Below, piece by piece: positions 5,271 through 16,276 of a stretch of 40,169 nucleotides of DNA (the first letter of the stretch is position 1; each line of letters opens with the position of its first letter). The notes under the pieces were generated by a model, which worked only from the letters and a program-made list of their open reading frames with translations, did not search any database and was not told where the DNA came from. The translations under genes and the position numbers were made by a program. This DNA is from an uncultured Eubacteriales bacterium (lineage in GTDB: Bacteria > Bacillota_I > Bacilli_A > RF39 > UBA660). The stretch spans positions 1 through 40,169 of the forward strand of contig ONTJ01000025.1 in the NCBI GenBank assembly GCA_900320735.1. The letters run 5' to 3'.

Positions 5271-5316
5271 TTACTATAAAAAGTTAATAAAGTATAATAT
5301 TAATGGAGGTATAATT

Positions 5317-5856
5317 ATGGAACTAAGAGGTAGTAAGACAGAAGAAAATTTAAAAAAAGCATTTGCTGGTGAAAGTGAAGCAAGAAATAAATATACATAC
5401 TTTGCGAGCAAAGCAAAAAAAGATGGTTATGAACAGATAGCTGCAATATTTGAGGAAACTGCTAATAATGAAAAAGAACATGCTAAAATGTGGTTTAAGG
5501 AATTAAATGGTGGAGAAATACCATCAACAGAAGAAAATTTAAAGGCCGCAGCAGATGGTGAAAATTATGAGTGGACTGACATGTATGAAGAATTTGCTAA
5601 AACAGCAGAAGAAGAGGGCTTTAATGAATTGGCATTTAAATTTAGGGCAGTTGCACAAATAGAAAAGCATCATGAAGAAAGATATAGAAAATTACTTAAA
5701 AATATAGAAGATAAAGTTGTATTTTCTAAAGATGAAGAGTGTATTTGGATATGTAGAAATTGTGGACATGTAGTAATAGGAAAATATGCTCCTGAAATAT
5801 GTCCTGTATGTAAACATCCAAAATCATATTTTGAACTTAAAAATAATAATTATTAA
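5317..5856 (+). CDS. rbr: Rubrerythrin
   Basis: 179 residues. The N-terminal ferritin-like four-helix domain carries the diiron ligands (E-S-E-A-R-N, E-x-x-H in NNEKEHAK, and EKHHEERY). The C-terminal rubredoxin domain has two CXXC pairs (CRNC and CPVC). Rubrerythrins reduce hydrogen peroxide in anaerobes using electrons from rubredoxin/NADH systems. The start is ATG 5317 because TGGAGGT (5304-5310) lies just ahead; an upstream in-frame extension to 5257 runs through the promoter. The -10 hexamer TATAAT is at 5293-5298. This implies an anaerobic, oxidant-exposed life style. Confidence 0.93.
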
Positions 5857-7654: not shown

Positions 7655-7856
7655 ATTACTTGAGCAATGAAGAAAAGTAGTAATATATGAATTATTTAAA
7701 GAGAGTCTATGATTGGTGTAAATAGATAATATGAAATATATGAACTTGTTTTGGAGCTTAAAACGTAGATAGGCGTTAACTATTAAAAGAGCATAGAATA
7801 TCTATGAAGTAAGGTGGTACCGCTAGAAATAGTCCTTACATTATAGATATTTTTTA
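7655..7856 (+). promoter_or_regulatory. T-box leader (leucine) for the membrane gene and leuS
   Basis: A tRNA-sensing leader. Stem I has ATGA and GGAG as the kink-turn halves, AGTA/GAA as the loop-E motif, AGAGA and TTGGTG. The specifier loop strand GAACTTG (7742-7748) contains Leu codons CTT (7745-7747) and, shifted by one, TTG (7746-7748). The conserved T-box AAGGTGGTACCGC is at 7811-7823. The terminator is AATATCTAT (7797-7805) with ATAGATATT (7843-7851) plus a T run. Uncharged tRNA-Leu would stabilise the antiterminator and permit read-through. Confidence 0.9.
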
Positions 7857-10853: not shown

Positions 10854-10930
10854 GCTCGATTAGCTCAGTTGGTAGTAGCACTTGACTGTTAATCAAGGTG
10901 TCGTAGGTTCGAGTCCTACATCGAGCGCCA
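10854..10930 (+). tRNA. tRNA-Asn (anticodon GTT)
   Basis: 77 bases including an encoded CCA. Acceptor GCTCGAT pairs with ATCGAGC, the discriminator is G, the D arm is AGCTCAGTTGG, and the anticodon stem is CTTGA/TCAAG with loop CTGTTAA (anticodon GTT 10888-10890). The T arm contains GGTTCGAGTCC. It is monocistronic, with its own promoter and terminator. It sits directly upstream of the T-box operon for aspS-gatCAB, whose product completes this tRNA's aminoacylation if Asn is made by transamidation. Confidence 0.96.
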
Positions 10931-10940
10931 TTTGATATTA

Positions 10941-10966
10941 AAAGTTCTATTTTAGAACTTTTTTTC
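10941..10966 (+). terminator. Terminator after tRNA-Asn
   Basis: Stem AAAGTTCT (10941-10948) with AGAACTTT (10954-10961) and a run of T. Confidence 0.85.
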
Positions 10967-11036
10967 TTTATAAAAAAATTGTAAATGTATATAATATAAA
11001 TGATTGACTTTAATTTATAGTTATGATAATATATAA

Positions 11037-11276
11037 GTGCTTAAAAACTTTGATGTGGAAAAGTAATATAAAGATTCCTTAAAAGAGAGTCCTACTTGGT
11101 GAAAATGGATATGTGATATTTATATGAAAGAACACCACGGAGTTCATTTCTTGAAATAATAGTAGAGAAGTGCGTAGATATGCGTTAAATAATGAGTGAT
11201 CACGGTTAGTGATAATTTGGGTGGTACCACGGATTTAACAGTTATTCGTCCCTTTTGGGATAGTAGCTGTTTTTTT
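11037..11276 (+). promoter_or_regulatory. T-box leader with overlapping Glu/Asn specifier codons, for aspS-gatCAB
   Basis: Stem I contains TGAT/GGAG kink-turn halves, a GTGG/CCAC helix, AGTA and GAA loop-E parts, AGAGAG and TTGGTG. The specifier-loop strand is GAAAGAACA (11126-11134) and carries AAC (Asn, 11131-11133) and, one base earlier, GAA (Glu, 11130-11132); no Asp codon is there. The T-box GGGTGGTACCACGG is at 11219-11232. The terminator hairpin spans 11237-11270 and is followed by T residues to 11276. A TTGACT (11004-11009)/GATAAT (11025-11030) pair with a short 15-base spacer is a possible promoter. It should induce the transamidation operon when tRNA-Asn, and possibly tRNA-Glu, is uncharged. 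Confidence 0.92.
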
Positions 11277-11296: not shown

Positions 11297-13051
11297 ATGA
11301 AAGTAAATAGTTATAGAACCAATACATGTGGTGAACTTACAATAGAAGATTTAGGTAAGAAAGTAACATTATCAGGATTTGTTTCTACTATAAGAGATCA
11401 TGGTGGAGTAATGTTTTTAGATTTAAGAGATCATGCTGGAGTAACACAAGTTGTTGTACATGATGAAGAAATGCTTAAAGGTGTATCAAAGGAAACAGTG
11501 ATAAAAGTTACTGGAGAAGTTATAAAAAGAGATGAAGAAACAATCAATACTAAACTTCTAACTGGAGAAATTGAAATAAAAGTAGATACTTTAGAAATAT
11601 TATCACCAAAGGCTAAAACTCTTCCGTTTGAAATAGATGGTGTTAATGAGGTAAATGAAGAAGTTAGACTTAAATATAGATATTTAGATATGAGAAGTAA
11701 AAAAATTTCTAGAAATATGCGTCTTAGAAGTGATGTGCTTCATTATTTAAGAAATAAGATGTATGATTTAGGATTTATGGAAGTACAAACACCAATACTT
11801 ACAGTATCTTCACCAGAAGGAGCTAGAGATTTTGTTGTACCTTCTAGAAAATTCAAAGGTAAATTTTATGCTCTTCCACAGGCACCTCAAATATATAAAG
11901 AACTTTTGATGGTAGGTGGAGTAGATAAATATTTCCAAATTGCTCCATGTTTTAGGGATGAAGATTCAAGAAAAGATAGAACACTAGAATTTTATCAATT
12001 AGATTTTGAAATGAGCTATGTAAATGAAGATGATGTACTCGAAATAGGTGAAGAAATTTTTTATGATGTATTCACTAATTTTTCAAATAAGGAAGTAAGC
12101 CCAAGACCTTTTAGAAGAATTACATATAAAGAATCTATGGATACTTATGGAACAGATAAACCTGATTTAAGAAATCCACTTGTAATAAAGGATGCAACTG
12201 AAGTATTAAAAAATACTACATTTAATCCATTTAAAAATAGTATTATAAAAGTGATTGTTGTGGATGATATAGGTAGTAAACCAAACAGTTGGTTTAATGA
12301 AATAGTAGATTTTGCATCTTCAATTGGTATGCCTGGTATTGGATATATTACTTTAATGGAAGATGGAAGTTTAAAAGGACCAATTGATAAATTTTTATCT
12401 GATGAAGAAAGAAAATCATTAATTGAAGAATTTAATATGAAGACTAATTCTGTAATGTTCTTTATTGCAAATAAAAGATTATCACATGCAAGAAATTTTG
12501 CAGGTCAAATAAGAGATGAACTTGGAAGAAAACTAGATTTAATAGATAAAAATAAACTAGAACTTTGCATAATAAAAGATTTTCCTATGTTTGAACTTGA
12601 TGAAAAAACTAACAAATATAAATTCTGTCATAATCCATTTTCAAAACCTTATGAGGAACATAAAGATTATGAAAATCATAATATGGATGATATACTTGCA
12701 TATCAATATGATTTTGTATGTAATGGTAATGAAGTAGCATCAGGAGCTATTAGAAATACTGATCTTGATTCACTTGTTAAAGGGTTTGAAATGGTTGGAT
12801 ACACTAAAGAAGAGGTTGAAAAAAGGTTTAATAGTTTATTTACAGCATTTAAATATGGTGTACCACCACATGGAGGTATGGCACCTGGACTTGATAGAAT
12901 TTTAATGCTTATATTAGATGAAGCAAATTTAAGGGAAGTTCAATCATTCCCAGCAAGTGCATCAGGAGCTGACCAAATGATGGGATCACCATCTACTTTA
13001 ACAGATGAACAACTTTCTGAACTTGGAATTAAATTCGAAGAGGAGGAATAA
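11297..13051 (+). CDS. aspS: Aspartyl-tRNA synthetase, probably non-discriminating (Asp/Asn)
   Basis: 584 residues, the bacterial type: N-terminal OB-fold anticodon-binding domain (about 1-105), class II catalytic core with an inserted GAD domain (about 290-410), and motif 3 GLDRILMLI near the C-terminus. RDHGG (His35) is the residue pattern of non-discriminating bacterial AspRS, where discriminating enzymes such as that of E. coli have Leu (RDLGS). It would charge both tRNA-Asp and tRNA-Asn with Asp, feeding GatCAB encoded just downstream. AAGGAGGA precedes ATG 11297. It is the first gene of the T-box operon. Confidence 0.95.
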   Translation: MKVNSYRTNTCGELTIEDLGKKVTLSGFVSTIRDHGGVMFLDLRDHAGVTQVVVHDEEMLKGVSKETVIKVTGEVIKRDEETINTKLLTGEIEIKVDTLEILSPKAKTLPFEIDGVNEVNEEVRLKYRYLDMRSKKISRNMRLRSDVLHYLRNKMYDLGFMEVQTPILTVSSPEGARDFVVPSRKFKGKFYALPQAPQIYKELLMVGGVDKYFQIAPCFRDEDSRKDRTLEFYQLDFEMSYVNEDDVLEIGEEIFYDVFTNFSNKEVSPRPFRRITYKESMDTYGTDKPDLRNPLVIKDATEVLKNTTFNPFKNSIIKVIVVDDIGSKPNSWFNEIVDFASSIGMPGIGYITLMEDGSLKGPIDKFLSDEERKSLIEEFNMKTNSVMFFIANKRLSHARNFAGQIRDELGRKLDLIDKNKLELCIIKDFPMFELDEKTNKYKFCHNPFSKPYEEHKDYENHNMDDILAYQYDFVCNGNEVASGAIRNTDLDSLVKGFEMVGYTKEEVEKRFNSLFTAFKYGVPPHGGMAPGLDRILMLILDEANLREVQSFPASASGADQMMGSPSTLTDEQLSELGIKFEEEE

Positions 13052-13052
13052 T

Positions 13053-13349
13053 ATGAGTAAATTTACTAAAGAAGTAGTAGATAGCTTAGCTGACAAACTT
13101 CTTATTGGTTTAACCGATGAAGAAAACCAAATGGTACTAGATGAATTTGAAGTAATAGATAAAACTATTAATATAATTAATAATATAGATAATATAGAAA
13201 AAGTAGAACCTATGACACATACACTTGATGATTTTGTATATGAATTAAGAGAAGACGTAGCAGAAGAATCAGTGCCAATTGAGGATTTACTTTCAAATTG
13301 TGATTGTCATAGTGCAAGAGAAGTAGAAGTTCCAAAGGTGGTGGGATAA
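13053..13349 (+). CDS. gatC: Asp-tRNA(Asn)/Glu-tRNA(Gln) amidotransferase subunit C
   Basis: 98 residues, the normal size. GatC wraps around GatA and helps assemble the complex. The N-terminal helical part (LADKLLIGLTDEE) and the later EPMTHTLDD followed by a negatively charged stretch are the family signature. The start ATG 13053 has GAGGAGGAA ahead; it lies 1 base after the aspS stop, so the genes are translated in sequence. Confidence 0.93.
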   Translation: MSKFTKEVVDSLADKLLIGLTDEENQMVLDEFEVIDKTINIINNIDNIEKVEPMTHTLDDFVYELREDVAEESVPIEDLLSNCDCHSAREVEVPKVVG

Positions 13350-13350
13350 T

Positions 13351-14814
13351 ATGAAATATATGAATAAGTCTATAGAAGAATTACATGAACTTTTAAAGAC
13401 TGGAAAAGTAACTTCAAAAGAATTAATTGATGAATCATTAGAATTATCTCATAAATTACAAGATAGTTGTAATGCTTTTGTAACTATATTAGATGATGCA
13501 TCAGAAGCTAAAGTGACAGACAATTTACTTTCAGGTATTCCATGTGGAATAAAAGATAACTATTCAACAAAAGGAGTGCTTTCAACTGGTAGTTCTAACA
13601 CTCTTAAAGATTATGTACCATTTTTTGATGCAACTGCATATGCCAAGCTTAAAAGTGCAGGAGCAGTAATGGTAAATAAAACAGTTATGGATGAATTTGG
13701 TATGGGTGGTACTGGTACAACAGGACATACTGGTATTGTAAGAAACCCATGGGATAAAGAAAGAATGTGTGCAGGTTCTTCATCGGGATCTGCTTGTGCA
13801 GTAGCTGCAGGTGTATATCCATATGCAACAGGATCTGATACAGGAGATTCTATTAGAAAACCAGCTGCATATTGTGGTATAGTAGGATATAAACCAACAT
13901 ATGGAATGATATCAAGATATGGACTTTTTCCATTTGCATCATCTTTAGATCATTTAGGAGTACTTACAAGAAATGTAGCAGATGCTGCTATAGTAGTTGA
14001 TAATATGAAGGGTATTGATAAAAATGATATGACTTCATGGGATTCATCAAATATTCATTTAAGAGATTCATTAAATGGAAATGTTTCTGGAAAGAAACTT
14101 TGTTATATAAAAGAAATATGTGATATAAATAATTATAATAATCCTACTGAAGAATTAAAATTACATCTAGAAAATTTTATGAAAACAGTGCAAAAAGCAA
14201 GAGAACTTGGAATAAAAGTAGATGAAGTATCAGTTGATAGGACTCTACTTAATGCTTCACCTTCTGTATATGTAGTTATATCTTGTGCAGAAGCAACATC
14301 TAATATGTCTAATCTAACTGGTATTATATTTGGACCAAGAGATGATGCCAATAACTGGATAGACATGGTAAAAAATTATAGAACTAAAGGATTCTCACCA
14401 CTTATCAAAAGAAGATTTGTAATTGGCTCATATGTACTTCAATCAGAAAATAAAGAAAGATATTTTAGAAATGCACAAAGAGTAAGAAGATTGCTTGTTG
14501 ATAAATGGAAAGAATTATATAAAGAATATGATGCAGTTATACTTCCAGTAGGTAGTGGTCCTGCAAAATATTTGGATGATGACAAGAATATGTTATCGAG
14601 CGATACTGATGTACTTGAAGAACATTTACAAATAGGAAATTATGGTGGTTTCCCATCAATAACTATTCCAAATGGATTTATAAATAATCTTCCTGTAGGA
14701 GTTAATATTACAGGTAATTGCTATGATGATGAGAATGTCTTGAATATAGCATATGCTTTAGAATCAACTCTTGGCTTTAAAAATCAAATAGCAGGAGGTG
14801 TGAATAATGAATAA
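13351..14814 (+). CDS. gatA: Asp-tRNA(Asn)/Glu-tRNA(Gln) amidotransferase subunit A (glutaminase)
   Basis: 487 residues of the amidase-signature family. The Ser-cisSer-Lys catalytic set is visible: Lys in GIPCGIKDNY, cis-Ser in CAGSSSGSA, and nucleophile Ser in GSDTGDSIRKPAA. The last motif has TGDS where many relatives have TGGS; the Asp form also appears, as I recall, in Mollicutes-type GatA. The subunit releases ammonia from glutamine and passes it through a channel to GatB. ATG 13351 lies 1 base after the gatC stop, with AAGGTGGTGGG upstream. The end overlaps gatB by 8 bases. Confidence 0.95.
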   Translation: MKYMNKSIEELHELLKTGKVTSKELIDESLELSHKLQDSCNAFVTILDDASEAKVTDNLLSGIPCGIKDNYSTKGVLSTGSSNTLKDYVPFFDATAYAKLKSAGAVMVNKTVMDEFGMGGTGTTGHTGIVRNPWDKERMCAGSSSGSACAVAAGVYPYATGSDTGDSIRKPAAYCGIVGYKPTYGMISRYGLFPFASSLDHLGVLTRNVADAAIVVDNMKGIDKNDMTSWDSSNIHLRDSLNGNVSGKKLCYIKEICDINNYNNPTEELKLHLENFMKTVQKARELGIKVDEVSVDRTLLNASPSVYVVISCAEATSNMSNLTGIIFGPRDDANNWIDMVKNYRTKGFSPLIKRRFVIGSYVLQSENKERYFRNAQRVRRLLVDKWKELYKEYDAVILPVGSGPAKYLDDDKNMLSSDTDVLEEHLQIGNYGGFPSITIPNGFINNLPVGVNITGNCYDDENVLNIAYALESTLGFKNQIAGGVNNE

Positions 14815-16276
14815 ATATTTAGCAAAAATAGGACTTGAGATGCACTGTGAAATATCAGAAACTAATACTAAAGTTTTTTCGTCAGCAAGAAATGAGTATT
14901 CATCTACACCAAACTGTAATATAAGGCCAGTAGATATGGCTTTTCCTGGTATACTTCCAGTAGTCAACAAAGAAGCAGTTAAAATGGCAATCAAGACTTC
15001 AATAGTTCTAAATTGTAGTCAACCTGAATATATGTATTTTGAAAGAAAAAATTATTATTATCCAGATTTACCAAAAGGATATCAATTAACACAAGAAACA
15101 AAACCAATACCAGTTGGTATATATGGTGAAGTAAAATATGAATGTAATAAAGAAGAAAAAACACTAAAAATAAATAATCTACATTTAGAAGAAGATGCAG
15201 CAAGTTCAAATCATTTATATGATACAACATCAATAGATTATAATAGAGCAGGTGTTCCTTTACTTGAATTAGTAACTGAACCAGATTTACATTCGGCAGA
15301 TGAAGCAGTTGCATTCCTTGAACATATGAGAAGCGTATATCAATATTTAGATATATCTGAAGCGGATACTAAAAAGGGTCAAGTTAGATGTGACGTCAAT
15401 GTATCAATAATGGATTCATCTTTAGATGAAAGTGATCCAAGCAATTGGGGAACTAAAGTTGAAATAAAAAATGTTAACTCATTTGGTGGAGTAAGAGACG
15501 CAATTAACTATGAAATCAAGAGACAAACAAAAGCAAAAGAAAATGGTACATATGATGAAGAAGTAGTTCAAGAAACTAGGAGATGGGATGAAGAGACTAT
15601 GTCTACAATACGTATGAGAAGTAAAGTAGATGCAATAGACTATAAATATTTTGTTGAACCAAACATCCCAAAATATAAAATAAGTAAAGAGTGGATAGAA
15701 GAAATAAAAAAAGAAATACCAAGTTTAGCCTATGACAGAAAGAAAAAATATATGAGTGAATATGGTCTTTCGGAATATGATAGTGATATATTGGTTAAAG
15801 ATAAGAAAAATAGTGATTACTTCGAAAAAGTAGTTGATCTAAAAACAGATCCAAAATCAGCAGCTAACTGGGTAAATGGTATGATTTTATCTTACTTAAA
15901 TTATAATGAAATATCTATTAATGATTTTTATATGACACCAGAATATCTTAAAGAATTGATTGATTTAATTGATTCCAAAGTTATATCTTCAAAACAAGGA
16001 AAAGATGTTTTTTATAAAGTGTTAGAAGATAAAAAAACACCAAAACAAGTAGTAGAAGACGAAGGAATGAAACAAATAACTGATGAAAGTGCAATATTAA
16101 GTATAATAGATGAAGTTATAAATGAAAATCCAAATCAAGTTGAAGCTTATGATCCACAAAATCCAAAATTACTTGATTATTTTGTAGGTCAAATAATGAA
16201 AAAGACAAAAGGAAAAGCAAATCCAGCTTCTGCTAGAACAATGATGAAAGAAAAACTTGATAATTTATCAAAATAA
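14807..16276 (+). CDS. gatB: Asp-tRNA(Asn)/Glu-tRNA(Gln) amidotransferase subunit B
   Basis: 489 residues, full length. GLEMHCEI at the N-terminus, YYPDLPKGYQLTQ, NRAGVPLLELVTEPD and DYKYFVEPNIP are GatB signature blocks. The C-terminal YqeY-like tail that contacts tRNA ends in ASARTMMKEKL. It activates the side-chain carboxylate of Asp-tRNA(Asn) or Glu-tRNA(Gln) with ATP and amidates it. The start ATG 14807 lies inside the end of gatA (ATGAATAA), so translation is coupled. It is the last gene of the operon and is followed by a terminator. Confidence 0.95.
   Translation: MNKYLAKIGLEMHCEISETNTKVFSSARNEYSSTPNCNIRPVDMAFPGILPVVNKEAVKMAIKTSIVLNCSQPEYMYFERKNYYYPDLPKGYQLTQETKPIPVGIYGEVKYECNKEEKTLKINNLHLEEDAASSNHLYDTTSIDYNRAGVPLLELVTEPDLHSADEAVAFLEHMRSVYQYLDISEADTKKGQVRCDVNVSIMDSSLDESDPSNWGTKVEIKNVNSFGGVRDAINYEIKRQTKAKENGTYDEEVVQETRRWDEETMSTIRMRSKVDAIDYKYFVEPNIPKYKISKEWIEEIKKEIPSLAYDRKKKYMSEYGLSEYDSDILVKDKKNSDYFEKVVDLKTDPKSAANWVNGMILSYLNYNEISINDFYMTPEYLKELIDLIDSKVISSKQGKDVFYKVLEDKKTPKQVVEDEGMKQITDESAILSIIDEVINENPNQVEAYDPQNPKLLDYFVGQIMKKTKGKANPASARTMMKEKLDNLSK

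Follow-up and report, generated by a model that had tools for sequence, protein, structure and literature searches.

The window (the whole stretch of DNA that was analysed, 40,169 nucleotides) carries a T-box leader that precedes the transamidation operon aspS-gatC-gatA-gatB, in a host genome of 0.80 Mb that is 72% complete. Its class also includes Mycoplasma-like genomes that read TGA, and is on that account probably Bacilli. The features of the locus are as follows:

10854..10930, forward strand: tRNA-Asn gene with anticodon GUU, encoded CCA and discriminator G73, the presumed ligand (ARAGORN, Rfam)
10939..10966, forward strand: hairpin and T-run AAAAGTTCTATTTTAGAACTTTTTTT, presumed terminator of the tRNA-Asn transcript (read from the sequence)
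11004..11032, forward strand: possible promoter TTGACT-17-TAATAT with TG before the second hexamer (consensus scan, 9/12 matches)
11041..11256, forward strand: T-box leader, from Stem I to the antiterminator (Rfam RF00230, 130.9 bits, E 5e-29, model 1-219)
11055..11058, forward strand: GTGG, 5' strand of the lower helix of Stem I, which pairs with CCAC at 11135-11138 and anchors the specifier register
11062..11065, forward strand: loop-E AGTA motif of the specifier loop (Rfam alignment)
11126..11134, forward strand: specifier strand GAAAGAACA, comprising the loop-E GAA, the spacer AG, AAC and A (sequence, pairing-based parser)
11130..11132, forward strand: GAA triplet in the -1 frame, claimed as a Glu specifier; conserved in the genus, not kept across the gatCAB leaders of the family
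11131..11133, forward strand: AAC, Asn specifier codon in the canonical register of codon, one purine and helix (register comparison); invariant in the gatCAB leaders of the family
11222..11225, forward strand: antiterminator bulge TGGT, Watson-Crick with A73 of tRNA-Glu and G-U wobble with G73 of tRNA-Asn
11237..11276, forward strand: intrinsic terminator hairpin and T-run (folding, -17.8 kcal/mol, z -7.3)
11297..13051, forward strand: aspS, bacterial-type aspartyl-tRNA synthetase with an RDHGG motif (NCBIfam PRK00476, 719.6 bits, passing the curated cut-off)
13005..13349, forward strand: gatC (TIGR00135, 46.0 bits against a cut-off of 47.1, best hit); the listed open reading frame start overlaps aspS and the true start is probably at about 13050
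13351..14814, forward strand: gatA (TIGR00132, 428.6 bits, under the cut-off of 481, best hit)
14807..16276, forward strand: gatB (TIGR00133, 520.6 bits, over the cut-off)

The RF00230 match spans the whole covariance model, at a score that compares with a gathering score of 93, and the same Rfam search also found the T-boxes of valS and leuS. Together with the NCBIfam matches of the genes, this bears out the T-box that the first-pass annotation had placed on aspS-gatCAB. In the lower helix of Stem I, a relative (G003) carries TTGG/CCAA, which is a compensatory change. The specifier arrangement AAC-A-CCAC is matched by the GUU anticodon of the host tRNA-Asn gene at 10854-10930. The bulge has the UGGN form: TGGT can pair with GCCA of tRNA-Asn by wobble and with ACCA of tRNA-Glu by Watson-Crick pairing, and the competing intrinsic terminator, the hairpin at 11237-11276, lies upstream of aspS. 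The promoter scan gave a weak signal (7 sites vs 4.5 expected in shuffles), and the AAAAGTTCTATTTTAGAACTTTTTTT hairpin was not flagged by the consensus scan because its stem is AT-rich. Both here and in most members of the genus inspected, the T-box is directly preceded by a tRNA-Asn gene. At one related locus (L051) the tRNA-Asn gene is found 3' of the T-box terminator, and at two others (L048 and L065) tRNA-Asn and tRNA-Glu genes stand together just past aspS.

We did not find asnS in the host genome or in genome G001, and in the host genome, being 72% complete, this absence carries little weight; asnS is present in 280 of the 296 genomes sampled from the class. No glnS passed the cut-off in any of the 41 family genomes. 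GatCAB is thus probably the source of both Asn-tRNA and Gln-tRNA here, in what appears to be a lineage without AsnRS that makes Asn-tRNA by misacylation and amidation. The AspRS of the operon has the motif RDHGG, and the enzymes of Bacillaceae hisS-aspS operons mostly have RDLGG. Histidine at this position marks non-discriminating AspRS in Pseudomonas, and we infer that the operon enzyme is non-discriminating. The specifier strand holds no Asp codon although aspS is the first gene, a point made in the first-pass annotation and confirmed in the sequence; that an aspS operon should read Asn is explained if Asn-tRNA is made, as it appears to be, via misacylation by AspRS and amidation by GatCAB.

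The specifier strand is 9 bases long, one more than the 8-base strand of the valS leader (GAAGGTAG), as had been noted. The T-boxes of this genome have strands of 7, 8 or 9 bases, and one additional base is thus nothing out of the ordinary in itself. The loop-E GAA (11126-11128) and an A (11129) are followed by the GAA and AAC triplets, which overlap with a shift of one base exactly as first described, and by an A (11134) and the helix CCAC (11135-11138); the GAA triplet results from the two-base AG spacer before AAC. To find Asn-type leaders we relied solely on the upper helix and the AGTA/GAA motifs of loop E, and then asked where the lower helix starts. In 112 distinct leaders it starts right after AACA, with 88% of cells paired, and a shift by one base lowers this to 39% (earlier) or 63% (later); the leaders with two-base spacers alone gave 93% after AACA, 42% earlier and 66% later. 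Because the helix starts after AACA, the extra base of the 9-base strand belongs to the side of loop E, and counting from the helix gives AAC as the codon. An alignment with only AAC in the pairing position, the outcome that the first-pass annotation had itself named as contrary to its proposal of two codons, is largely what these leaders give.

The GAA triplet lies one base off this helix-anchored register, and the base after it is C, not a purine. The order of codon, purine and helix also holds in Val, Leu, Phe, Glu, Ser and Tyr leaders of the genome or genus, where the loop-E spacers are 0 or 1. The T-box database TBDB prioritises the triplet 2-4 bases from the 3' end of the specifier bulge and also weighs the '-1' frame (PMC7778990), which in the aspS leader is GAA. 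Another overlapping codon pair is present in the T-box of the leuS operon (7658-7840), whose 7-base strand GAACTTG has CTT in register and TTG, also a Leu codon, one base later, and here no second amino acid is required.

On this comparison of sequences, the leader is probably a transcriptional T-box riboswitch that controls aspS-gatCAB and is read chiefly by tRNA-Asn via AAC. For the switching itself and the ligand in vivo, we infer a scheme in which the GUU anticodon of uncharged tRNA-Asn would pair with the AAC of Stem I and the TGGT bulge would bind the 3' end of the tRNA, allowing the antiterminator to form and AspRS and GatCAB to be made. With Asn-tRNA-Asn in ample supply, it is the terminator (11237-11276) that would form.

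The first-pass annotation had proposed that the operon senses both substrates of GatCAB. This part of the proposal fails: the substrates are Asp-tRNA-Asn and Glu-tRNA-Gln, and tRNA-Glu, which is read by a GAA codon, is not among them, so tRNA-Glu would report glutamate charging. Co-sensing of Glu by the aspS leader is nevertheless possible, and would amount to a two-codon T-box in which tRNA-Asn reads AAC, tRNA-Glu reads GAA by a one-base shift, and a shortage of either in its charged form turns on AspRS and GatCAB. We regard such a switch as rather unlikely. It draws on a comparison with the gltX gene of the same genome, which passes the TIGR00464 cut-off and has its own Glu T-box, with the arrangement GAA-A-GAA-A (strand GAAAGAAA) kept in 8 distinct leaders. 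The aspS leader has the same GAA-A-GAA spacing from loop E, and its AAC-A stands at the normal distance from the helix, so that the 9-base strand fits both rulers; unlike it, the gltX leader has an 8-base strand that reads Glu only, with GAA followed by A and the helix, whereas GAA in the aspS leader runs into a C where a purine is usual. The tRNA-Glu(UUC) of the genome has discriminator A73 and would pair with TGGT better than tRNA-Asn, which has G73. We did not accept the discriminator base as a test of Glu sensing: many asnS-only leaders carry TGGT, and the tRNA-Asn of the family, where inspected, has G73.

Conservation bears on the two codons unequally. The strand GAAAGAACA is identical in 7/7 genus leaders aligned, as a two-codon T-box would lead one to expect. 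We rejected genus-wide conservation of the AG spacer as evidence, because in the genus the gltX and tyrS leaders have single spacer bases that are just as conserved. Across the family, AAC is kept in the gatCAB-linked Asn leaders of 18/18 genera, while the preceding position varies: 7 genera have G there (4 with AG), 8 have T and 3 have A. The prediction that both codons would be conserved in homologues therefore stands for AAC and not for GAA. Moreover, gatCAB operons in five genomes without detected asnS (G047, G022, G020, G052 and G013) carry GAATAACA or GAAAAACA, strands that are unable to read Glu.

If Glu were sensed for the sake of transamidation, the leaders of AsnRS genes should less often have G in front of AAC. 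Conservation of GAA together with AAC beyond that in Asn-only leaders was not found, G preceding AAC in 7/18 gatCAB-linked genera vs 9/28 genera with AsnRS alone (p = 0.75). Whatever the kind of Asn leader, roughly one in three has G before AAC, so the overlap is not above expectation given AAC. It needs one base only, any G-preceded AAC containing GAA, and so it cannot by itself identify a two-tRNA switch. Two-base spacers lean weakly towards Glu co-sensing: they occur in 4/18 gatCAB-linked vs 1/28 asnS-only genera (p = 0.07, uncorrected for relatedness), and an earlier and slightly smaller set gave 3/9 for the gatCAB operons of genomes in which asnS was not detected vs 1/27 for the rest, a nominal enrichment (p = 0.04, uncorrected for phylogeny). 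Against this, an ileS leader has GAA-AG-AUC-A (GAAAGATCA), so the AG spacer is not special to Asn.

The leaders of asnS in Bacilli share strands with the aspS leader, including GAAAGAACA and GAAGAACA, in the same register, but they control AsnRS and not transamidation. In other Bacilli families GAAGAACA is the usual form of asnS leaders, among them those of G034, G079 and G090, three genomes whose asnS leaders have G before AAC and in which gatB was not found. Scanning GTDB contigs for GAAAGAACA with a T-box core returned at least 119 stretches. Among the matches listed, at least 36 precede aspS or gat genes and have gat downstream, at least 21 precede hisS-aspS operons, and at least 14 precede asnS (13 without gat genes seen, some flanks being short); the remaining listed matches are unclassified, incomplete or chance. 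The occurrence of the same strand before AsnRS genes and hisS-aspS operons also argues against the two-codon reading. Loci from Clostridia were left out of the frequencies above, since the pattern scan that found them requires GAAAGAACA. In the Bacillaceae, leaders of hisS-aspS operons (six loci and others) carry Asn AAC, as GAAAGAACA, and not Asp GAC, and most of the AspRS encoded there have RDLGG despite the AAC leader. Large hisS-(aspS)-(asnS)-gatCAB operons under one T-box reading Asp or Asn were seen at six further loci; the specifier and the synthetase content of such hisS-led operons differ within one family.

An operon of the same content under Asn control in C. acetobutylicum was reportedly described by Saad et al. 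in 2012 (JBC); it differs in organism, and the lineage here has no detected AsnRS. The two-codon precedent cited in the first-pass annotation is genuine: the T-box of the C. acetobutylicum transamidation operon has overlapping Asn and Glu codons and binds both tRNAs (Saad et al., 2013, as summarised in PMC4052509). The aspS leader is like it in preceding a transamidation operon and in the one-base shift between the codons, a likeness to the published description, and the host there is a Clostridium whereas here it is a gut lineage of Bacilli. Unlike that report, the comparative evidence in the Bacilli lineage does not point to Glu sensing, and Glu reading here is putative. The aspS leader is most likely a further example of the C. 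acetobutylicum type of T-box, with tRNA-Asn as its ligand. Should it instead be a true tRNA-Asn and tRNA-Glu T-box in uncultured Bacilli far from Clostridium, which we doubt, the AG spacer would be an adaptation to both rulers and TGGT a compromise between A73 and G73.

With tRNA-Asn as the chief ligand, the present results extend Asn-controlled aspS-gatCAB T-boxes to a reduced-genome genus of gut Bacilli and supply frequencies against which claims of overlapping specifiers can be judged. Experimental work on T-box multi-specificity is described as sparse in the TBDB account (PMC7778990), and leaders of the family that are alike except for the base preceding AAC offer natural pairs in which to test it.

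Two further readings are far less probable. A response to tRNA-His or another tRNA via a different frame, such as CAC (11133-11135) in AACAC, could appeal to GAAAGAACAC, which is common to hisS-aspS leaders, but is highly improbable: CAC would reach one base into the lower helix, where that base is paired and a compensatory change is seen, and the operon has no hisS. Least probable of all is a decayed or non-regulating T-box, for although the minimum-energy fold of Stem I alone misses the canonical stem, this is not unusual for an AT-rich T-box, and the high whole-model Rfam score, the terminator z of -7.3 and genus-wide conservation with compensatory changes speak against decay.

Among the relatives, four Asn T-boxes are without a T-run terminator of their own and have tRNA-Asn genes inside the leader:

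L049:5850-6100 (G047): leader with internal tRNA-Asn, bulge TGGC
L054 ~5282-5540, reverse strand (G041): leader with internal tRNA-Asn, bulge TGGC
L068:5661-5840 (G070): leader with internal tRNA-Asn, bulge TGGC
L387:735-960 (G411): leader with internal tRNA-Asn, bulge TGGC

The order at all four loci is T-box hairpin, about 50 bases, one or two tRNA-Asn genes, a terminator, and then gatC (G047, G041 and G070) or asnS (G411). The distal terminator has a 5' side complementary to the 3' strand of the T-box hairpin, at -17.0, -16.1, -15.1 and -8.9 kcal/mol for L049, L054, L068 and L387, with shuffle fractions of 0.003, 0.012, 0.007 and 0.137 in the same order. This suggests, from the sequences of four loci, that the decision may be relayed across an always-transcribed tRNA; a duplicated terminator hairpin could be a partial source of the complementarity. 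No comparable arrangement with a tRNA inside the leader was found in the literature searched. Another unusual T-box, found at L007 and at six loci of genus relatives (L138, L153, L155, L156, L159 and L161), has a non-canonical specifier loop, ACGGGTA/ACGAATA with TAGATCACTCT, and probably reads Ile AUC; the T-boxes of this type precede varying genes, some of which encode a probable Ca/Na antiporter.
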